A DNA stretch of 34,095 bases from Oscillospiraceae bacterium (lineage in GTDB: Bacteria > Bacillota > Clostridia > Oscillospirales > CAG-272), in contig SVTO01000031.1 of assembly GCA_015063745.1 (NCBI GenBank), positions 1-34,095 of the forward strand, in the 5' to 3' direction. Position numbers and translations under genes: made by a program. The notes beneath the pieces were generated by a model. That model had not been told where the DNA came from, made no database searches, and was given only the letters and a program-made list of their open reading frames with translations. Shown here one piece after another: positions 132-32,522 of this stretch; positions within the stretch are counted from its first letter, which is position 1; every line of letters begins with the position of its first letter.

Positions 132-476
132 TCAGAAATTCCGGCCGTTCCAACCCCATGTGCCGATGCCTTCGTACTTTACGTAGATACGGTCTTCGGG
201 AATCTGCAGGACTTCCTTCAGGATGGCACATACATCCCTGGTCATCTTTTCGGCACCGGCAGGGTTAACGTCACCGAAAAGCTTTACTTCCACATAAGCG
301 GTGGGTGCGTCCTGATTGCCCATGAACCACAGGCGGCAGTTGTCTTCAAAATTCAGCATCAGCCATCTTTCCGTTTTGCCGGGGAAATTTTCGATCGCGG
401 CACCGAATTTTTCCTTCAGAAGTTTTTCCTTATCGGGAGTGATGACTGTGGATACTTTCGTTTCGATATAAGGCAT
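132..476 (-). CDS. MIF-like tautomerase family protein
   Basis: This 114-residue protein matches the macrophage migration inhibitory factor/phenylpyruvate tautomerase family in length and layout. The start is MPYIETKVS, so Pro2, the catalytic base exposed after Met removal in this superfamily, is present. The C-terminal part has the family pattern DRIYVKYE followed by WGWNG near the end (residues 96-112). Family members interconvert keto and enol forms of 2-oxo acids such as phenylpyruvate; the substrate here is unknown. The gene starts 12 nt after the stop of the DUF4298 gene and is the last of a three-gene unit headed by a glycyl radical enzyme, which suggests a linked role on a keto or enol intermediate. 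That link is inference. No signal peptide is visible, so it is probably cytosolic. Confidence 0.88.
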   Translation of the reverse strand: MPYIETKVSTVITPDKEKLLKEKFGAAIENFPGKTERWLMLNFEDNCRLWFMGNQDAPTAYVEVKLFGDVNPAGAEKMTRDVCAILKEVLQIPEDRIYVKYEGIGTWGWNGRNF

Positions 477-488
477 ATTTTTTCTCCT

Positions 489-809
489 TTATGCTTTTTT
501 CAGTATTTCCGCAGCTGTTTCCAGCATTTCGATTGCCAGTTCCTGATTTTCCGTCAGCAGGTTCCAAACAGCGTCTTCTGTAAGTACGCCACATCTCAGA
601 TCGGGAGGGAGATTTCCCTTCTCGGAATCCTCGAAATCCGCACGCCACTGCAGACTGTCGTAATAGGTGGACAGACTGCGGATTGTGTCTTGTACATCGC
701 GGAACAGCGCCAGTGCTTCTTCATACTTGGTAAGCACTTCTGTACACCGGTTCAGGGCATCTTCCATCTGTTCGATATATTTTATGCGGTTTTCTGCGGA
801 ATTTTCCAT
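489..809 (-). CDS. DUF4298 domain protein
   Basis: This 106-residue, mostly helical, acidic protein has the DUF4298 signature: a YYDS..W segment followed by GNLPPDLRCGVLTED and a terminal NLL helix. The function of the family is not known. A longer reading frame extends to 872, but the ATG at 809 is preferred because GAGG lies about 7 nt upstream and the extension would run into the end of the glycyl radical enzyme gene. It sits 43 nt downstream of that gene and 12 nt upstream of the tautomerase gene, in the same orientation, so the three are probably co-transcribed. The N-terminal helix (residues 1-50) may form a coiled coil, compatible with a small adaptor or partner protein. Confidence 0.85.
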   Translation of the reverse strand: MENSAENRIKYIEQMEDALNRCTEVLTKYEEALALFRDVQDTIRSLSTYYDSLQWRADFEDSEKGNLPPDLRCGVLTEDAVWNLLTENQELAIEMLETAAEILKKA

Positions 810-852
810 TTTGAATCCTCGGTCTTTCTCTGTTGGCTGAAATGCCGGATTA

Positions 853-3012
853 TCAATACATAGTACGGGCAATTACGTTATTCTGGAGGTCTTCGTTCAG
901 ATTGACAAAACGGTCGCTGTAACCGCCTACACGTACGATCAGGTCGCGGTGTGCGTCGGGGTTCTTCTGGGCGTCGAGCAGTTCTTCCTGGGATACAACG
1001 CCGATCTGGATCTGCTGGCCGCCACGTTCAAAGTAGGATTCCCACAGGGACAGGAAGGCTTCCTTGCCCGGTTCGGAATTGAAGATGTTCTTATCGAATT
1101 TCAGATTCAGGATAAAGCCGCTGGCGGGCAGAGTCTGGTCCAGATGCAGGCAGGAGTTCAGCAGGGCTGTGGGACCGTTGGTATCTCTGCCGGGTGTGGC
1201 ACCGATGGAGTCGGCGATGATCGGGTCGGAGCACTTTCTGCCGCTCGGCAATGCACCCAGCGCACGTCCCATGCCGGGAGAGTTGATGAAGGGAGAACAG
1301 CCGCTGGTGAAGAAGCCCCCGCGGAAGGTCGGAATGGTACGCAGGTAACGGCTGCAGTGGTTGATGGCCTTTTCCGCCAGTTCGTCCACGTATTCGATAT
1401 CGTTGCCGAACTTCAGCTCATTATTGGCGAAGAAGCGGAAATCTTCCTCATGGCCTTCAAAATTCTTAGCGGCCATATCCGCGATTTCCTGAAGGGTATA
1501 CTTTTTCTCTTCAAATACGTACTTCTTGATGGCTGCAAGGGAGTCTGCGGTTTCGGCGATACCGTGGAACAGGATCTGGCCGTGGCCGTAGAGGGGACCG
1601 CCGTTTTTATAGTCCTTTGCCTTTTCGATACATCCTTCGATCAGGATGGAACGGTAGGGGTTCGGGGATTTTTCTGCGTATGTTCTCTGGGCGAGATTGG
1701 CAAGGCCTGTAGTTACGTCCAGCAGGTGCTGTGCCTGAATGATGAAGGCGCTGTAGAAATCTTCGAAAGTCTTGAAAGATTCGATTGTACCCGTTTTCGG
1801 GCCGAGGACATTGCCGGTTACTGTGGAAACACCGTTATTCAGCGCCAGTTCCACCGCTTTCGCCAGGCATACCTGTCCGTCTTCCAGACCCATATGGCTC
1901 TTGGACTGGATGTCGATCTGGTTACAGCCGTTCATAACATATTCATGGGCGTCTGCTGCGGGAATACCCAGGCTTTCCAGTGCCGGGCAGACCACTTCGT
2001 CATTGTACAGAGCCGGCAGACCGCAGCCGGTTGCCAGAGCCTTGTGTGCAGCTTCCATCAGTTCCTTCGGTGTACCTTTATGCCAGCGGAGGGTCAGGTT
2101 GGGCTTGGTGGCATTGGCGGCAGCAGTTTCTTCGAGAATGGCGTAGGTCAGGGAGTTGGTCAGGTCATTGCCTTCCGCGTCGGAACCGGAAATGCAGAGG
2201 TTCCATGCATCCGCTTCGATCAGCTTCCGCCATACCATATGGAGGTATTCTCTGCGGAGAGGTTCATCGGTCTTTTCCCAGAAGGGATACATGTACTGGT
2301 CGAAATGTCCGGGGGAGTCCTGACCGTCGAAGCACATATTCAGAATGAACAGAATGGACGCTTCCGCAAAGTCACGGCAGGGCTTCTTGGGGGCGTGATC
2401 GAAGGTTTTTACGGTGCGGGCATAGTATGCCTTGGTTTTTTCGTCGGTGCAGGCTTCCATGAGCTGGGCCGCTTTTTCGCCGTAACGGGCGCACATGACA
2501 TCGAAGGCATCCAGCATCATGTCCATGGCATCGTAGAAATCGTCCTTGCCTTCATTGATCGCACGGTATTTGGCAACCTTTTCACGGTAATAATCCGTAC
2601 CGTTGGCGGCAAAACCGGCGAAATCAGGGTTGGCGTGGCCCATCCAGCTGCCGGCCCACATATGGCCTTCCGTTTCGTGCATTTCATATTCGGGTGTTCT
2701 CTCATAGCTGTTGGAGGCCCAGGAAGGCATATTCTCCAGAATATATTTTTCGTCTTCCGGATCCACATCGCCGTTCTGGCTGGATCCCTTTACGGAACCG
2801 GGCCGGAATACAAGGCTGTTGGCAAAAGCAAAATATACTTCTCCGAGAGCAACACCTCGGCAGAAGCCCTGTTCATCCACATTGAATGCGGACAAGGGCA
2901 GTTCCTTCATGGCTGTGAGGAATCCGGCTGACATTCTTTTGAGTTTGCTTCCACCTTCACAGGACAGAAAACCTCTGGAAAACGGGAATCTTTTTGTTTT
3001 GAATTCGTGCAT
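853..3012 (-). CDS. Glycyl radical enzyme, pyruvate formate-lyase-like, divergent active site
   Basis: The 719-residue protein is a glycyl radical enzyme. The C-terminal glycyl radical loop is RVGGYSDRF (residues 694-702), with Gly697 as the expected radical site; the residue before it is Gly instead of the usual Ser or Thr. The catalytic Cys loop is NGCNQ (361-365). Cys363 is kept, but the position that is Glu in the GCxE motif of dehydratase and lyase members (glycerol dehydratase, CutC, hydroxyproline dehydratase) is Gln365. It is not a PFL proper, which has two adjacent cysteines. PALYNDE (333-339) is another family landmark. At 719 residues it is short for the family. The start at 3012 has AAGGAGG 9 nt upstream. 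No activating radical-SAM enzyme is encoded in the window, so activation must come from elsewhere. Downstream, DUF4298 and tautomerase genes complete the unit. The substrate is unknown. Confidence 0.92.
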   Translation of the reverse strand: MHEFKTKRFPFSRGFLSCEGGSKLKRMSAGFLTAMKELPLSAFNVDEQGFCRGVALGEVYFAFANSLVFRPGSVKGSSQNGDVDPEDEKYILENMPSWASNSYERTPEYEMHETEGHMWAGSWMGHANPDFAGFAANGTDYYREKVAKYRAINEGKDDFYDAMDMMLDAFDVMCARYGEKAAQLMEACTDEKTKAYYARTVKTFDHAPKKPCRDFAEASILFILNMCFDGQDSPGHFDQYMYPFWEKTDEPLRREYLHMVWRKLIEADAWNLCISGSDAEGNDLTNSLTYAILEETAAANATKPNLTLRWHKGTPKELMEAAHKALATGCGLPALYNDEVVCPALESLGIPAADAHEYVMNGCNQIDIQSKSHMGLEDGQVCLAKAVELALNNGVSTVTGNVLGPKTGTIESFKTFEDFYSAFIIQAQHLLDVTTGLANLAQRTYAEKSPNPYRSILIEGCIEKAKDYKNGGPLYGHGQILFHGIAETADSLAAIKKYVFEEKKYTLQEIADMAAKNFEGHEEDFRFFANNELKFGNDIEYVDELAEKAINHCSRYLRTIPTFRGGFFTSGCSPFINSPGMGRALGALPSGRKCSDPIIADSIGATPGRDTNGPTALLNSCLHLDQTLPASGFILNLKFDKNIFNSEPGKEAFLSLWESYFERGGQQIQIGVVSQEELLDAQKNPDAHRDLIVRVGGYSDRFVNLNEDLQNNVIARTMY

Positions 3013-3053
3013 ATGTCATTACCTCCTTGTAAGAGTTTTTCGCTGCGTTTCAC

Positions 3054-11438: not shown

Positions 11439-12509
11439 TTACTTTCTGTTCTTCTTGTTCTTCAGAACGAGAATACCGCTGGTGATGCTGATTGCAGCCA
11501 AAACGAGGGCAATGTCAGCAGTCTGGGGAGCAGAAGTGGTATCGTCAACAACTTCTTCGGCAGCAGCTTCGGTTGCAGCTTCAGTTGCAGCTTCAGTTGC
11601 AGCTTCGGTGGCAGCTTCGGTTGCAGCTTCGGTTGCAGCTTCAGTTGCAGCTTCGGTTGCAGCTTCAGTTGCGGCTTCGGTTGCAGCTTCGGTTGCAGCT
11701 TCAGTTGCAGCTTCGGTTGCAGCTTCGGTTGCAGCTTCGGTTGCAGCTTCGGTTGCAGCTTCGGTTACACTGGGAACAAGAACATATTCTATAGTTTGAG
11801 TACCCCAAGTATGTCCCTGCACTCCATTCGCCAGAATAACAGGAATTTCATTACCTTCATCATCATAAACAACATACTGTGCATAATCATTGTACTGGAG
11901 GGAGTACGCAAATATAGCACCGGCTTCCAGCTTGAGAACCGCATTCGCCGGAATTGCCACTTCGGTTACGTATCCATTACCGGTGCACACACCGGCTGCC
12001 CATACCTGTGTACTATCAATCAACGCAGATACATCACTTCCATCACCTGCTGCAGCAATGACACCCTGACCCATGGTGTTGACATGAATCTGCAGTACAT
12101 GAGAATTGTAACTGCTACTCAGGTAATGTTCCACATTATCATTAGTATTCCATTTTGTATAATCTACGTCCAGATACAAGTCTTCTGTAGAAGTTTCGTC
12201 ATTGATGACGGTACAAACATATAAGTAGTTTTCATCCCAAACCATGTACGCTTTGGTCCCATATGCAGTGGTGAATTCTGTACTCATCTGCGGTTCCCAA
12301 TAAAACTCAAAGTTTGTCAGTTCTACAGCCGCAGAAGAAAGGTATATATCATCCAATACCCCGTCAATTACAGGAGTCCCATAGGAAACATCAACTTTGA
12401 TAATTTCCACTTTCTCTGTTTCTTCGACAGTTTCTTCTGCGCAAACTGTCATGCACATTGTGGATACAACCATAACAACAGATAACAGAATTGTAAGAAT
12501 TTTCTTCAT
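11439..12509 (-). CDS. Secreted CBM9-like surface protein with TEA-repeat stalk and PQT-type C-terminal anchor
   Basis: This 356-residue exported protein starts with a signal peptide (1-24, cleavage near VCA-EE). Residues about 40-240 resemble the family 9 carbohydrate-binding/DOMON-like beta-sandwich: TPVIDGVLDDIY near the start, then AYMVWDENYLYVCTVINDE. Next come 17 tandem tetrapeptides (VTEA plus 16 ATEA, residues 248-315), a rigid, possibly glycosylated stalk. The end has SAPQTAD (326-332), a hydrophobic segment and a basic tail KNKKNRK: a sorting-signal layout with PQTAD in place of LPxTG. The protein probably displays a glycan-binding domain on the cell wall. No sortase is in the window. 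The ATG at 12509 follows AAAGGA. The gene is more AT-rich than its neighbours, a hint of transfer. Confidence 0.82.
   Translation of the reverse strand: MKKILTILLSVVMVVSTMCMTVCAEETVEETEKVEIIKVDVSYGTPVIDGVLDDIYLSSAAVELTNFEFYWEPQMSTEFTTAYGTKAYMVWDENYLYVCTVINDETSTEDLYLDVDYTKWNTNDNVEHYLSSSYNSHVLQIHVNTMGQGVIAAAGDGSDVSALIDSTQVWAAGVCTGNGYVTEVAIPANAVLKLEAGAIFAYSLQYNDYAQYVVYDDEGNEIPVILANGVQGHTWGTQTIEYVLVPSVTEAATEAATEAATEAATEAATEAATEAATEAATEAATEAATEAATEAATEAATEAATEAATEAATEAAAEEVVDDTTSAPQTADIALVLAAISITSGILVLKNKKNRK
11566..11769 (-). repeat. Seventeen tandem 12-bp units encoding (A/V)TEA
   Basis: Direct 12-bp repeats run from 11566 to 11769 inside the surface protein gene. On the plus strand the unit is GCTTCGGTTGCA or GCTTCAGTTGCA. 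Variation is almost only synonymous (ACC/ACT for Thr, GCA/GCC/GCG for Ala); the last unit encodes VTEA. Near-identical units make copy-number change by slippage likely. Confidence 0.97.
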
Positions 12510-12664
12510 AAAAATGCATCCTTTCTGAATTTTATTTTCATTACAAAAATGTATCCACAACCTCATCCTCCTGTTTCCGGTACGGTGGAACACGTGCTGA
12601 AATGACTGTGGATTTACAGCACCAGGACTTTAACATCCCAATATTTTACATTCTTGTTACTACT
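12510..12664 (-). promoter_or_regulatory. Long 5' leader of the TEA-repeat surface protein gene
   Basis: About 155 nt separate the predicted start (near 12664) from the ATG at 12509, unusually long for this window. It can form a stem of GTGCTG with CAGCAC around an inner CTGT/ACAG hairpin (roughly 12626-12592 on the minus strand). It also contains a GGAGG directly abutting an in-frame ATG, too close to act as a start. No known riboswitch class was recognised. Confidence 0.45.
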
Positions 12665-19860: not shown

Positions 19861-20007
19861 ATGAACAACCAGAATCAGAATCAGAACAAAAACCAGAATA
19901 ATCAGAACAAGCAGACCAACCAGAACCAGAACAAGAATCAGAACAACGCTCAGAACAAGAACCAGAATCAGAACCAGAACCAGAGAGACGAAAAGGATAC
20001 GTTCTGA
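19861..20007 (+). CDS. 48-residue Asn/Gln-rich small protein
   Basis: Translation from the ATG at 19861 gives 48 residues made almost entirely of Asn, Gln and Lys (a run of NQ, NK and NN pairs) and ending in a charged tail QRDEKDTF. An AGGAAGG ribosome binding site lies about 6 nt before the start and a good terminator follows at 20106-20142, so it looks like a real gene though too short for routine calling. Its composition resembles prion-like or intrinsically disordered segments; some Clostridia have comparable NQ-rich mini-proteins of unknown role (recalled, unverified). A CATACTATA at 19812-19820 fits the sigma-K -10 pattern CATAnnnTA, but no matching -35 was seen. It is in the same direction as the SLH gene 98 nt upstream. 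Confidence 0.68.
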   Translation: MNNQNQNQNKNQNNQNKQTNQNQNKNQNNAQNKNQNQNQNQRDEKDTF

Positions 20008-26864: not shown

Positions 26865-26894
26865 GTAAATATGCAATGAATGGGGAGTAGTATG

Positions 26895-28145
26895 ATGATT
26901 ATCAGCAGTAAGAATGTTTGGATCGACAATCAGTTTACACCCGCCGCTCTTTGTATTGAAGATGGAAGAATTGTTCGTGTGGATCCGTTTACGGAGAATG
27001 CGGACATTTTTTTAGGTGATTATGCTGTTTTTCCCGGTTTTATCGATGTGCACGTGCATTTGCGAGAACCGGGTTTTTTATACAAAGAAACCATTGCCAG
27101 CGGTACAAAAGCGGCAGCAAGAGGCGGATATACCACCGTTTTTGCCATGCCCAACCTAAATCCCGTGCCGGACTGTCCCGAGCATCTGGTTGTTCAGCTG
27201 GAGGCGATTCGCAAGGATGCCTGCATCAGAGTCCTTCCCTACGGTTCTCTGACGGTAGGTCAGAACGGTAAGGAAATGGCGGATCTGGCCGGTATGGCTG
27301 CGAATGTGTGTGCCTTCTCCGATGACGGACGGGGGGTACAGAACGAAGATATGATGCGGCAGCTGATGTTCGAAGTAAAGAAACTGGGTAAGATCGCTGC
27401 GGCACACTGCGAAGTCAATGATCTGCTGAACGGCGGGTACATTCACGACGGTGATTACGCCAAAGCACACGGACACAGAGGGATCTGCTCCGCTTCCGAA
27501 TGGAGGATGATTGAGAGAGACATCCGTCTGGCGGAAGAAACCGGTTGTCCCTATCATGTATGCCATATTTCCACCGCGGAAAGCGTTTCCCTGATCCGGG
27601 ATGCCAAGAAGCGCGGTGTGGACATTACCTGCGAAACCGGCCCCCATTATCTGACCATGTGTGATGCGGATCTGCAGGAAGACGGACGATTCAAGATGAA
27701 TCCCCCTCTTCGCAGTGCGTCGGACAAGGAAGCACTGCTCGCCGGTATTCTGGACGGTACGATCGACATGATCGCGACGGACCATGCGCCTCACAGTGCC
27801 GAGGAAAAAGGCCGGGGACTGGAAAAGAGTGCCATGGGTGTGGTCGGTATCGAGACGGCCTTCCCGGTTCTCTATGCAAAGCTGGTGAAGACCGGGTTTA
27901 TGTCTCTGGAGAGACTGATCGGTATGCTGACCACGGCGCCGGCTGCCCGATTCGGTCTGGAAAATCCGGAAATCAAAGCAGGGGCGAGAGCCGATATTAC
28001 GGTATTTGATCTGGACTGCGCATACACGGTAGATCCGGCGGATTTCCTGTCCATGGGCAGGGCAACTCCTTTTGCCGGATGGACGGTTCAGGGCAGATGT
28101 GTGCTGACACTTGCCGCAGGTAAGATCGCTTACGAGGGGAGATAA
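26895..28145 (+). CDS. pyrC: Dihydroorotase
   Basis: This 416-residue class I dihydroorotase cyclises carbamoyl-aspartate to dihydroorotate. Metal-site motifs are DVHVHLREPG (51-60), AAHCEVND, the CHIST segment and ATDHAPHS. ETGPHYL is another family landmark. The ATG at 26895 lies 7 nt after GGGGAG; ATGs at 26880 and 26892 are alternatives of little consequence. It is the first gene of the pyr operon and ends 2 nt before pyrK. Confidence 0.97.
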   Translation: MIISSKNVWIDNQFTPAALCIEDGRIVRVDPFTENADIFLGDYAVFPGFIDVHVHLREPGFLYKETIASGTKAAARGGYTTVFAMPNLNPVPDCPEHLVVQLEAIRKDACIRVLPYGSLTVGQNGKEMADLAGMAANVCAFSDDGRGVQNEDMMRQLMFEVKKLGKIAAAHCEVNDLLNGGYIHDGDYAKAHGHRGICSASEWRMIERDIRLAEETGCPYHVCHISTAESVSLIRDAKKRGVDITCETGPHYLTMCDADLQEDGRFKMNPPLRSASDKEALLAGILDGTIDMIATDHAPHSAEEKGRGLEKSAMGVVGIETAFPVLYAKLVKTGFMSLERLIGMLTTAPAARFGLENPEIKAGARADITVFDLDCAYTVDPADFLSMGRATPFAGWTVQGRCVLTLAAGKIAYEGR

Positions 28146-28147
28146 TC

Positions 28148-28876
28148 ATGAAGCAGAGTATTTTTACGATTGAAACCAATGTAAATATTGCCAAGGATGT
28201 GTACCGCATGACGCTGATCGGGGATACGTCCGAAATCACCCGTCCCGGTCAGTTTGTGAACATTCAGCTGGACGGATTCTATCTGAGACGGCCGATTTCC
28301 GTATGCGACTGGGAAGAACGAACGCTGACGCTGATCTACAAGGTTCTCGGACGCGGCACCGAAGCTATGTCCCATTATACCCCCGGCACCGGGCTGGATG
28401 TTCTGACCGGGCTCGGCAACGGATTTGATGTGGACAAGGCCGGGGACAATCCGGTTCTGGCAGGCGGCGGCGTGGGTGTGCCTCCCATGTACGGTCTGGC
28501 CAAGAGACTGCGGGAAATGGGTAAGAATGTTACCGTGGTTATGGGCTTTGCCTCTGCGGAGGATGTATTTTATGAAGAAGAGCTGACAAAGCTGGGCTGC
28601 ACTGTGAAGGTGGCTACCGTGGACGGAAGCTACGGCAAAAAGGGATTTGTGACCGATCTGATGGACGGCAGTTATTCCTACAGCTATGCCTGCGGTCCCA
28701 TTCCCATGCTGAAGGCGGTTTACGACAAGCTGCCCTGCGGCGGTGAATACAGCTTTGAAGAACGCATGGGCTGCGGATTCGGTGCCTGCATGGGTTGTTC
28801 CTGCAAGACCAAATACGGCAGTCTGCGTATATGCAAGGACGGTCCCGTTCTGGAAAAGGAGATCATCGTATGGTAA
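28148..28876 (+). CDS. pyrK: Dihydroorotate dehydrogenase B electron-transfer subunit
   Basis: This 242-residue FAD/[2Fe-2S] subunit passes electrons from PyrD to NAD+. It has the flavin-binding RRPISVCD (47-54), the nucleotide-side GGGVGVPPMYGLA (106-118) and the [2Fe-2S] cysteines Cys209, Cys214, Cys217 and Cys229. It overlaps the start of pyrD by 7 nt, as expected for subunits made in equal amounts. Confidence 0.97.
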   Translation: MKQSIFTIETNVNIAKDVYRMTLIGDTSEITRPGQFVNIQLDGFYLRRPISVCDWEERTLTLIYKVLGRGTEAMSHYTPGTGLDVLTGLGNGFDVDKAGDNPVLAGGGVGVPPMYGLAKRLREMGKNVTVVMGFASAEDVFYEEELTKLGCTVKVATVDGSYGKKGFVTDLMDGSYSYSYACGPIPMLKAVYDKLPCGGEYSFEERMGCGFGACMGCSCKTKYGSLRICKDGPVLEKEIIVW

Positions 28877-29784
28877 ACACTACAATTCATCTGTCCGGTC
28901 TTGTGCTGGACAATCCCATCATTCCGGCAAGCGGTACTTTCGGTTACGGCAGAGAATTTGCGGAGCTGTACGACATCCGCTGTCTCGGTTCCTTCTCCAT
29001 CAAGGGTACCACCAAGGATCCCCGTTTCGGCAATCCTACCCCGCGTATTGCTGAATGTCCCAACGGTATGATCAACGCGGTCGGTCTGCAGAATCCCGGT
29101 ATTGAAAAGGTAATTGCGGAAGAACTGCCCAACATCAAGAAGATTTTCGGCAAGCCCGTTGTGGCCAATATCGGCGGGTTCTCCCTGGAAGAATATGTTT
29201 ACTGCGCCGAAAAGATGGATGCCTGTGACAATGTGGGTATTCTGGAGGTCAACATCAGCTGTCCCAATGTACACGGCGGCGGTATGGGCTTCGGTACTAC
29301 GGCGGAATCCGCGGCTTCTGTTACGGAAGCGGTAAAAAAAGTGACCACCAAGCCTGTTTATGTAAAGCTGACACCCAATGTTACCGACATCGTATCCATT
29401 GCCAAGGCGGTGGAAGCGGCCGGTGCTGACGGGATCAGCATGATCAATACTCTGGTCGGTATGCGCATTGATTTGAAACGCAAGAAACCCGTGATCGCCA
29501 ACACTACCGGCGGTTTCTCCGGTCCTGCCATCCTGCCCGTGGCTCTGGCGCAGGTTTACAGAGTATATGACGCTGTCAACATTCCCATCATCGGTATGGG
29601 TGGGATTTCTTCTGCGGAAGATGTGATTGAAATGATGCTTGCCGGTGCTTCTGCCGTGCAGATCGGCGCCGCAAATCTGGTCAATCCCTACATCTGCAGA
29701 GATATCGTTGCCGCTCTGCCGGAGGTTATGCAGAAATACGGAATCACAAATTTAGAAGAATGCACAGGAGGAGCACACAGATGA
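28870..29784 (+). CDS. pyrD: Dihydroorotate dehydrogenase B catalytic subunit
   Basis: This 304-residue class IB FMN protein oxidises dihydroorotate to orotate. The active-site segment [11 protein letters not shown] contains Cys131, the base typical of class I enzymes. Other landmarks are PASGTFGYG (19-27), the GIISAEDV-like GGISSAEDV and the phosphate-binding AGASAVQIG. The adjacent pyrK confirms type IB, which uses NAD+. The ATG at 28870 overlaps pyrK. Its stop overlaps the pyrF start in ATGA. Confidence 0.97.
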
Positions 29785-30479
29785 ACAGAGATGTAATTAT
29801 TGCATGCGATTTCGCGTCCAAGGAAGAGGTTATGACCTTTCTGAACCGTTTCGGTGATGAAAGACCTTTTGTCAAGATCGGTATGGAGCTGTACTATTCC
29901 GCAGGTCCCGATATCGTCAGAGAAATCAAGGAAAGAGGTCACAAGATCTTCCTCGACCTGAAGCTGCACGATATTCCCAATACTGTTAAGAAGTCCATGA
30001 ATGTTCTCTCCCGTCTGGGTGTGGACATGACCAACCTGCACGCTGCCGGTACCGTTGCCATGATGGAAGCCGCCATCGAAGGCCTGACCCGTCCCGACGG
30101 AACCCGTCCCCTGCTGATCGCCGTTACGCAGTTGACTTCTACCGGTGAAGACCGTATGCGCGAAGAACTGCTGATCGATCATCCCATCGACGAGGTTGTT
30201 ATGCACTATGCCGCCAATGCCAAGAAGGCAGGTCTGGACGGTGTTGTATGTTCTCCTCTGGAAGCCGGCAAGGTTCACGAAACCTGCGGTAAGGAATTCA
30301 TCACCGTGACCCCCGGTGTCCGTTTCGCGGACGGTGACATCGGCGACCAGGTTCGTGTTACCACTCCCGCCAAGGCAAAGGAAATCGGCTCCGACTTCAT
30401 CGTTGTGGGCAGACCCATTACCGCTGCTGCCGATCCTCTGGCCGCTTACAAGCGCTGTGTGGAAGAATTCTGTAAGTAA
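29781..30479 (+). CDS. pyrF: Orotidine 5'-phosphate decarboxylase
   Basis: This 232-residue enzyme decarboxylates OMP to UMP. The catalytic charged network is in [11 protein letters not shown] (58-68: Asp59, Lys61, Asp64), with [10 protein letters not shown] (30-39) and the phosphate-binding end VGRPIT. AGGAGG precedes the ATG, and the start overlaps pyrD by 4 nt, showing translational coupling. It is of the bacterial group 1 (short) type. Confidence 0.97.
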
Positions 30480-30501
30480 TATTTGATACAAGGAGATAGA
30501 T

Positions 30502-31158
30502 ATGGAAAGCTACAAGAGAGAGTTCATCAAGTTCCTGCAGGATGCGGGAGTTCTGAAGTTCGGTGATTTTACTGCCAAGAGCGGCCGTAAGATTCCCTAT
30601 TTTATCAATGCCGGCGACATCAAGACCGGTGAACAGATCGCCAAGTTGGGTGAGTTCTATGCCAAGAGCTATCTGGAAAAGGTTGGCAATAAGAGAACCG
30701 TTCTGTACGGCCCCGCTTACAAAGGCATTTCCATTGCCGTTTCCTCTTCCATCGCTCTGTCCAAGAACGGCCTGGATGTTCCCTTCTTCTTTAATCGCAA
30801 GGAAGCCAAGGACCATGGCGAAGGCGGTATCTTTGTAGGGTATGTTCCGAAAGCCGGCGAAGAAGTGGTGATCGTGGAAGACGTTATCACCGCCGGTACC
30901 GCAATCCGCGAAAGCATGGCCAACCTCAGCTCTCTGGAAGGTGTTAAGGTTGCTGCTACCTTCGTTATGGTTGACCGCAAGGAAAAGGGTAAGGGCGAAA
31001 AGTCCGCCATGGCTGAAGTGGAAGAAGAATTCGGTTTCCCCGTTTATTCCGTTGTGGATGTTTATGACATCATCGAATATCTGGAAGAAGATCCGGCGAA
31101 CACCGAAAATGTGGAAAGAATCAAAAATTATCTGAGTGTGAATGGAGCCAAAGCATGA
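30502..31158 (+). CDS. pyrE: Orotate phosphoribosyltransferase
   Basis: This 218-residue PRTase joins orotate and PRPP to make OMP. The PRPP-binding motif is [16 protein letters not shown] (122-137), and [12 protein letters not shown] (23-34) and LYGPAYKGI (68-76) are typical. It follows pyrF by 22 nt with its own AAGGAG and overlaps pyrB by 4 nt (ATGA). Confidence 0.97.
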
Positions 31159-32075
31159 GAAGTCTGATCGACATTCTGGAGCTGTCCACGGAAGAAATTG
31201 AAGATCTGATGGCCACAGCTGCCGATATTATTGCCAATCCCAAGAAATACTGTGAAGTTGCCAAGGGTAAGAAGCTGGCTACCCTGTTTTTTGAGCCTTC
31301 TACCAGAACCAGACTGAGTTTCGAAGCCGCTATGTATGAGCTGGGCGGTAATGTACTCGGTTTCTCCGAAGCACAGAGCAGCTCCGCTTCCAAAGGCGAG
31401 AGCGTTGCCGATACCGCCAAGGTTGTCAGCTGCTATGCGGACATTATTGCCATGCGTCATCCCAAGGAAGGTGCGCCCTATGTGGCTTCCCTGAATGCTT
31501 CCATCCCCGTGATCAATGCGGGTGACGGCGGTCACAATCATCCTACCCAGACCCTGACCGACCTGTTCACCATTCAGGCCGAAAAGAAGCGTCTGTCCAA
31601 CATGACCGTGGGCTTCTGCGGGGATTTGAAGTTCGGCAGAACCGTACATTCCCTGATTGCCGCGCTCTCCCGCTATGTGGGCATCAACATTGTGCTGATC
31701 TCTCCCACCGAGCTGAAACTGCCCGAATATGTACGCCGCGACATTCTGGTGAAGAACCGTATTCCCTACAAGGAAACCAACAATCTGGAATCCGTTATGC
31801 CGGAGCTGGATGTACTGTACATGACCAGAGTGCAGAAGGAACGTTTCTTCAGCGAAGAAGAATATCTCCGTCTGAAGGACAGCTACATTCTCACCGAAGA
31901 CAAGCTGAATGCCGCGAAATCCGATCTCTGCATCATGCATCCCCTGCCCCGCGTAAACGAAATTTCCGTAGCCATCGACAAGGATCCCAGAGCGTGCTAC
32001 TTCAAGCAGGTGCTGTACGGCAAATATATGCGTATGGCTCTGATCATGATGCTGCTGGAACTGAGCGCTGAATAA
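31155..32075 (+). CDS. pyrB: Aspartate carbamoyltransferase catalytic subunit
   Basis: This 306-residue subunit forms carbamoyl-aspartate, the first committed step. Carbamoyl phosphate is bound by [12 protein letters not shown] (46-57), with [10 protein letters not shown] and [10 protein letters not shown] as further landmarks; the length is that of E. coli PyrB. The pairing with pyrI next door implies the class B, allosteric dodecamer. It is coupled to pyrE by a 4-nt overlap. Confidence 0.98.
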
Positions 32076-32093
32076 GGAACGGAGGATACGTAC

Positions 32094-32522
32094 ATGAAAA
32101 TTGATTCCATCAAGAACGGTCTTGTACTGGACCACATCACCGCCGGCCGCAGTATGGACATTTACAATCTGCTGAAGCTGGGCGATCTGGACTGCTCCGT
32201 TGCCATCATCAAGAATGCCCCCTCCAAGAAAATGGGTAAGAAGGACATTATCAAGATCGATGCCGATATGGATCTGAAGCTGGATGTACTGGGTTATATT
32301 GACCCCGATATTACCGTAAATGTGATCCGTGACGGCAGCTGTGTGGAAAAGAAGCATCTGGAGCTTCCCGAAAAACTCACGGGTGTGATCCGCTGCAAGA
32401 ATCCCCGCTGCATCACTTCCACGGAACAGGAACTGCCCCACATTTTCCATCTGACGGACCGCAGTGAGGGTACTTATCGCTGTGTGTACTGTGATACCAT
32501 GGCTAAGAAAATGCATTATTGA
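32094..32522 (+). CDS. pyrI: Aspartate carbamoyltransferase regulatory subunit
   Basis: This 142-residue subunit has the N-terminal nucleotide-binding domain (NGLVLDHITAG) and the C-terminal zinc site with Cys101, Cys106, Cys130 and Cys133. It confers CTP/ATP feedback on PyrB, so the pathway has protein-level control in addition to any leader control. It is the last gene of the operon, directly before the terminator. Confidence 0.97.
   Translation: MKIDSIKNGLVLDHITAGRSMDIYNLLKLGDLDCSVAIIKNAPSKKMGKKDIIKIDADMDLKLDVLGYIDPDITVNVIRDGSCVEKKHLELPEKLTGVIRCKNPRCITSTEQELPHIFHLTDRSEGTYRCVYCDTMAKKMHY

Follow-up and report, generated by a model that had tools for sequence, protein, structure and literature searches.

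Sequence comparisons make it close to certain that a group of glycyl radical enzymes (GREs), in which a fixed glutamine replaces the glutamate of the CXE motif, is a real and active-looking subfamily. The representative analysed here is encoded in a 34,095-nucleotide contig of an Oscillospiraceae bacterium, called the window hereafter, meaning the whole stretch of DNA that was analysed. By all signs in its sequence, this protein is probably an active member of the group, which is found in anaerobic Clostridia and which we call the NGCNQ subfamily after the residues of its Cys loop. The subfamily is uncharacterised, as judged by the models, structures, and references that were tested. No description of it was found among the openly accessible papers and abstracts covered here. 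GREs are responsible for some of the most demanding anaerobic reactions in the gut, and the CXE glutamate is regarded as a hallmark of the eliminases. Its replacement by glutamine in every member of a clade, at times in tandem arrays and in bacteria of which some carry ten or more GRE genes, would mean either that the glutamate can be dispensed with when other acids are present, which would put the accepted mechanism directly to the test, or that a GRE reaction of a new kind awaits discovery.

The window gene and its conserved residues

The encoded protein passes the Pfam cut-offs for both the PFL-like domain (PF02901, 343.4 bits against a cut-off of 24.3) and the Gly_radical domain (PF01228, 87.8 against 22.2). 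Membership in the GRE superfamily is indicated by these two domains together with the radical glycine Gly697 in an RVxGY-type loop and the thiyl cysteine Cys363, and both residues are present in 116 of the 116 members of the clade described below. A preliminary description of this DNA had read the Cys loop as NGCNQ, with Cys363 and Gln365, and the radical loop as RVGGYS, with Gly697. Both readings are borne out by the minus-strand ORF, in which these loops occupy residues 361–365 and 694–699 (Table 1) and the wider Cys-loop string is MNGCNQIDI. Comparison with an 82% identical orthologue (L010; both genes have 719 codons) gave a dN of 0.12 and a saturated dS of 1.87, values that show purifying selection on the window gene.

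The same description held that serine or threonine usually precedes the radical glycine. The RVGGYS loop is present as stated, but this generalization did not stand. The most common residue at the position is alanine in HypD, CutC, Grp, YbiW, and PflD, and serine in PflB. The 110 GREs of our collection that lack GCNQ carry S (38), G (20), A (19), C (15), W (8), T (7), or a gap (3), and G is present in all 116 sequences with GCNQ.

Table 1. Features of the window that relate to the GRE gene and its nearest neighbours
Feature	Position	Strand	Basis and remarks
Glycyl radical enzyme (GRE), NGCNQ clade	853..3012	minus	719 aa, ATG start, stop codon included; ORF, PF02901 and PF01228, tree
Cys-loop codons N361-G-C363-N-Q365	1918..1932	minus	ORF translation and alignment
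S372-H-M-G-L-E377-D378, (nearly) fixed clade block directly after the Cys loop	1879..1899	minus	Alignment
Radical loop R694-V-G-G697-Y-S	916..933	minus	ORF translation
His126, at the HypD His160 position	2635..2637	minus	116/116 in clade
Asp232, near the HypD Asp278 position (register uncertain)	2317..2319	minus	116/116; profile alignment to 6vxc
Ribosome-binding site AAGGAGG	3022..3028	minus	9 bases before the GRE ATG
DUF4298 protein adjoining the GRE gene	489..872	minus	Pfam PF14131
MIF-like tautomerase	132..476	minus	Pfam PF01187, 31.8 bits, cut-off 22

The NGCNQ clade among glycyl radical enzymes

A tree was constructed from 226 distinct GRE ORFs of at least 550 amino acids, which were left from 273 hits after the removal of duplicates. 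The references, among them GrpM, were HypD (11 sequences, ten from loci passing the NF043068 model and one annotated plasmid copy), CutC (three sequences passing TIGR04394), two plasmid GREs with pdu-type genes next to them, a GRE from Moraxella, and YbiW, PflD, and PflB from E. coli. Isethionate lyase, the sulfopropanediol dehydratases, the decarboxylases, HplG, and benzylsuccinate synthase were compared through model or PDB scores.

All 116 GCNQ sequences form one clade with nothing else inside it (support 1.0). The same 116 grouped again in a tree made without the Cys-loop columns, which rules out the clade as an artefact of its own motif. The preliminary description had proposed that the protein be placed in a tree and residue 365 read across its nearest cluster, and it named as the contrary outcome a characterised cluster in which Gln is standard and the substrate is known. 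What emerged is Gln in 116 of 116 sequences of a clade that contains none of the characterised references of the tree. Since the matching NCBIfam equivalog models also all scored below their cut-offs, membership in a characterised cluster was rejected for the models and references compared.

Conservation within the clade extends well past the Cys loop. Residues G125, H126, D232, N361, G362, C363, N364, Q365, D367, S372, H373, G375, L376, G696, and G697 are invariant in all 116 sequences, and E377 (114/116) and D378 (115/116) are nearly so. Across the 226 GREs, the position of the CXE glutamate is occupied by Q (117), E (93), W (7), S (6), N (2), or D (1). Because NGCNQ was one of the patterns in the scan that supplied the locus set and part of these 226 GREs, the share of GCNQ is biased upward. 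A similarity search free of any motif recovered NGCNQ in 30 of 30 loci at E ≤ 1e-150, a threshold that may omit more distant members lacking NGCNQ. This result rules out a sequence error or a lone variant.

The one additional Gln sequence is more distant and reads GCGQ (L172). Four sequences from this and related bacteria that read GCQE (L002 on contig C16 of the window's own genome, L198, L244, and L250) are placed adjacent to the GCNQ clade with weak support (0.138), and the GCNQ, GCQE, and GCGQ sequences are held together with a support of 0.952. The GCQE proteins share with the clade an RVGG or RIGG radical loop as well as Asp229, Asp232, Glu377, and Asp378, but they retain the CXE glutamate. 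All four carry Glu365 in addition to these acids and Gly696. Branching just outside of the three types is a group of 23 sequences with GCIE or GCVE and RVSGF (L136, L142, L155, L171, and relatives).

Scores of the window protein against models of known GREs all fell below the respective cut-offs. The highest was for the broad PFL2-3 subfamily, whose cut-off was also missed (371.1 versus 678.2 bits), followed by HypD (NF043068, 332.6 versus 1100). Lower values were obtained for the sulfopropanediol dehydratases HpfG (NF048009, 309.5) and HpsG (NF048011, 294.8), both with a cut-off of 1000, choline TMA-lyase CutC (TIGR04394, 290.7 versus 1050), indoleacetate decarboxylase IAD (NF033718, 239.3 versus 1100), HPAD (NF033715, 184.3 versus 1150), and pyruvate formate-lyase (PFL; TIGR01255, 68.0 versus 994.2). 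The Cys-Cys pair of PFL is absent, with GCNQ in place of CCVS, and the CXE motif of GRE eliminases is replaced by CNQ in 116 of 116 sequences.

Among proteins of solved structure, glycerol dehydratase (1r8w), diol dehydratase (5i2a), a glycyl radical protein (9rco), and HypD (6vxc) match the sequence best. The B12-independent glycerol dehydratase and the diol dehydratase resemble the clade in the aligned His, the radical loop, and the Cys loop, although they carry GCVE and RVAGY where the clade carries GCNQ and RVGGY. In the alignment, Glu377 sits at the position of a substrate-binding Asp of glycerol dehydratase. Annotated relatives (L236 and L237) lie with microcompartment genes, whereas no match to the microcompartment shell gene PF00936 was found at E ≤ 0.001 in the window's genome, which is 82% complete; two of 14 control genomes match. 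The clade keeps the His160 position of HypD, as His126, and its Asp232 lies near HypD Asp278. Asp232 is paired with Asp278 by profile alignment to 6vxc and not by multiple alignment, which leaves the register uncertain. YbiW and PflD, which act on sugar-derived substrates and combine GCIE or GCVE with RVAGY, fall outside the NGCNQ clade. These two E. coli enzymes are reported to cleave anhydrosugar 6-phosphates (PMC12441222).

The window's genome gives 11 matches to PF02901, representing ten GRE genes, six of which carry NGCNQ. These six are the window gene (contig C33), four genes in tandem on C64 (about 64783-73682), and one at C48:20486-22624. Within the genus, PFL-like matches occur in 24 of 25 genomes, with up to 19 in one genome, where one gene may give two matches. 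At the family level, 25 of 196 genomes match the clade profiles at E ≤ 1e-200, with the motif read in nine new loci plus the earlier ones and the rest judged by score. Six of 291 genomes match at the class level (E ≤ 1e-180), and NGCNQ was confirmed in five because the sole match of the sixth (G072, locus L244) is GCQE. At the phylum level, the only match among 398 genomes is the window's own.

Tandem arrangement is recurrent. The 87 runs of NGCNQ genes in 86 loci include 75 single genes, seven runs of two, two runs of three, and one each of four (C64 of the window's genome), five (L053), and six (L052, whose first copy is cut by the contig end). Five NGCNQ-profile matches in a row were also noted at G750:C42:33924-45004 and G852:C42:4159-15141, both from the same family, and genome G771 gave 36 first-look candidates, five of which were scored. 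Host information was taken from the best 80 of 358 relatives (78 distinct), and not all 358 need carry NGCNQ. By title, all 78 named loci are metagenome assemblies, of which 43 derive from the gut of herbivorous mammals (goat, sheep, deer, buffalo, cattle, yak), one from chicken, and 34 state no host. Many clade members come from herbivore guts.

Activating enzymes and neighbouring genes

In at least 34 of the 86 distinct loci, a gene for a GRE-activating radical-SAM enzyme lies on the same strand as an NGCNQ gene and no more than 300 bases away from it. Since many contigs are short, these counts are minimum values; genes were called with a simple script. The single adjoining activase that was tested (L063) passes TIGR02494 with 298.0 bits against a cut-off of 174.35, and L060 is another locus with such a pair. 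No activase lies beside the window GRE. The preliminary description had proposed to look for an activating radical-SAM enzyme elsewhere in the genome, and a stand-alone candidate was located at the very end of a contig (C24:38949-39728), with 336.8 bits against the same cut-off. A second activase adjoins an ACWE-type GRE on C23, and further ones may be missing from this assembly of 81 contigs that is 82% complete. Another radical-SAM protein (L039:8702-9676) is encoded on the opposite strand where the array of four GREs on C64 ends. This protein is unlikely by eye to be an activase, because it lacks the DGxGIR-type start of these enzymes.

Apart from activases and other GREs, no fixed operon partner of the NGCNQ genes was seen in the 86 loci. 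An aldo/keto reductase of one family adjoins the GRE in six of them, five of which (L094, L104, L124, L126, and L127) also have an activase. These reductases are 63–70% identical to the one at L104 and are relatives of YvgN and the 2,5-diketogluconate reductases. A Pfam scan covered 19 neighbours chosen by eye plus one activase, and two of the 19 gave no match. The matches comprised GH4, GH109-type, and GH28 proteins, BNR repeats, an MGH1-like glycosidase, aldo/keto reductases, Gfo/Idh/MocA proteins, an FGGY kinase, fucose isomerase-like and TIM-barrel isomerase-like proteins, a glutaminase A-like protein, a beta-propeller, an SDR, an FAD oxidoreductase, and an amidohydrolase. This hand-picked set may point to carbohydrates; many other neighbours read across the loci lack a link to sugars.

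The window GRE itself is located beside genes that read by eye as mfd and pth, which appear to be housekeeping genes. A MIF-like tautomerase gene lies near a GRE in two loci only, at a distance of 204 bases in L051, the closest orthologue, and of 377 bases in the window, where the DUF4298 gene intervenes. A link between tautomerase and GRE would be a guess, and with this occurrence the tautomerase was set aside as a pathway partner.

Several other features of the window were observed. In an ORF at 11439-12593 on the minus strand, a 12-base unit encoding TEAA is repeated about 18 times, and the tail behind these repeats resembles, by eye, a sortase sorting signal. Another TEAA-repeat protein is encoded close to the orthologous locus in L042. 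At 19867-19984, AAC-AAG/CAG units form short-period repeats. On the plus strand, the translations at 26880-32522 read by eye as a row of pyrimidine synthesis genes, encoding dihydroorotase, an electron-transfer subunit, dihydroorotate dehydrogenase, OMP decarboxylase, orotate phosphoribosyltransferase, and the catalytic and regulatory chains of aspartate carbamoyltransferase.

The role of Gln365 and the possible reactions

The CXE glutamate of GRE eliminases is described as conserved, in contact with a substrate hydroxyl group, and generally taken as the base (PMC7077986, PMC8473560). The preliminary description had likewise assigned Glu the role of a base in GCxE dehydratases and lyases, in agreement with these sources. 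For HypD, the E436Q, H160Q, and D278N variants are reported to have no activity, and the authors give Glu436 the different role of positioning the leaving hydroxyl (PMC7077986). This residue, which is essential in HypD, is Gln in the window GRE. The concern that Gln would block the usual proton abstraction is therefore a fair one, because the clade lacks the eliminase CXE motif and E436Q inactivates HypD. The further proposal that Gln must signify a different reaction, such as decarboxylation, is unsupported. The clade keeps the active-site His126 and has the invariant or nearly invariant acids Asp232, Glu377, and Asp378, acids that the four GCQE relatives carry as well, so another residue may act as the base. 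No positive support for decarboxylation was found in the analysis of the window GRE.

Our best guess from these sequences, which we hold at a probability of about 0.5, is a rewired elimination in which moved acids act on a sugar-derived polyol. An activating radical-SAM enzyme would generate the radical at Gly697, and Cys363 would take a hydrogen atom from a hydroxylated, probably sugar-derived substrate. A leaving group, which might be water or a ring or glycosidic oxygen, would then be lost via radical elimination to yield a carbonyl product that a partner reductase could reduce in some members. In place of the missing Glu, His126, Asp232, and Glu377-Asp378 would together serve as base and acid, and Gln365 would hold the substrate hydroxyl or His126 through hydrogen bonds. 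We prefer this reading over a new reaction type mainly because the GCQE proteins carry Glu plus the extra acids. Acids able to take over may thus have been present before Glu365 became Gln. Also counted as support are the closest solved structures, which include HypD as well as glycerol and diol dehydratases, together with the monophyly of the clade, its invariant residues, the activases, reductases, and carbohydrate genes beside some members, and the low dN of the window gene. Counted against it are the absence of CXE from the clade, the loss of HypD activity in E436Q (PMC7077986), and the weak placement of the GCQE proteins beside the clade (0.138). In addition, the window gene lies beside apparent housekeeping genes and not in a sugar operon, with no adjoining activase, and the reductase and glycosidase neighbours are found in few loci and differ among them.

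A more tentative reading is that the NGCNQ proteins constitute a separate functional class, in which a His-Gln pair replaces the His-Glu pair of the eliminases and runs a reaction not yet known for GREs that was diversified by tandem duplication. Examples would be base-free rearrangement of a sugar or cyclitol, epimerisation, or cleavage of a glycosidic or ether C-O bond. If this were true, tandem duplication would let one gut bacterium attack many plant-derived sugars.

A less likely alternative to the rewired elimination is that the enzymes carry out a radical reaction without elimination, one that can dispense with a carboxylate base at this position, such as C-C cleavage like that of PFL, decarboxylation, or epimerisation or isomerisation of a sugar or cyclitol by hydrogen-atom transfer. 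Gln365 cannot provide a carboxylate base, the corresponding residue of PflB is Ser (CCVS), and the occurrence of Gln in 116 of 116 sequences suggests a positive role for it; the inactivity of HypD E436Q (PMC7077986) favours the same reading. However, the decarboxylase (239.3 and 184.3 bits) and PFL (68.0 bits) scores are lower than that for HypD (332.6 bits), the Cys-Cys pair of PFL is missing, and no pointers to CoA or arylacetate metabolism were noticed among the neighbours that were read or scanned.

We consider it improbable that the proteins are ordinary dehydratases of a known substrate such as a diol, in which the change from Glu to Gln is nearly neutral. The glycerol and diol dehydratases among the best solved matches favour this reading, but identity to plasmid GREs is at most about 31% among the matches listed (60 of 135 records), and the window's genome (82% complete) has no PF00936 shell gene at E ≤ 0.001. 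Moreover, the invariant Gln belongs to an entirely new block (NGCNQIDIxGKSHMGLEDG), a pattern that a neutral change would not produce. A catalytically dead or regulatory GRE, as might be supposed from the loss of a residue essential in HypD (PMC7077986), is very improbable. Against it stand the invariance of Cys363 and Gly697 in 116 sequences, shared by most of the active-site block, the activating genes found beside NGCNQ genes in 34 of the 86 loci, the purifying selection on the window gene, and the arrays of up to six NGCNQ genes.

Non-CXE types of GRE number more than the NGCNQ type alone. Seven sequences have Trp at the position of the CXE glutamate, reading GCNW in six cases and GCQW in one. 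These are located at L072:2978-5122, L150:1087-3297, L219:1166-3376, L220:1156-3366, L176:1015-3201, L176:3229-5415, and L173:885-3113. Two further GREs read TCMN (L165 and L182) and one reads LCQD (L164). The His at position 126 is kept in all ten of these proteins.
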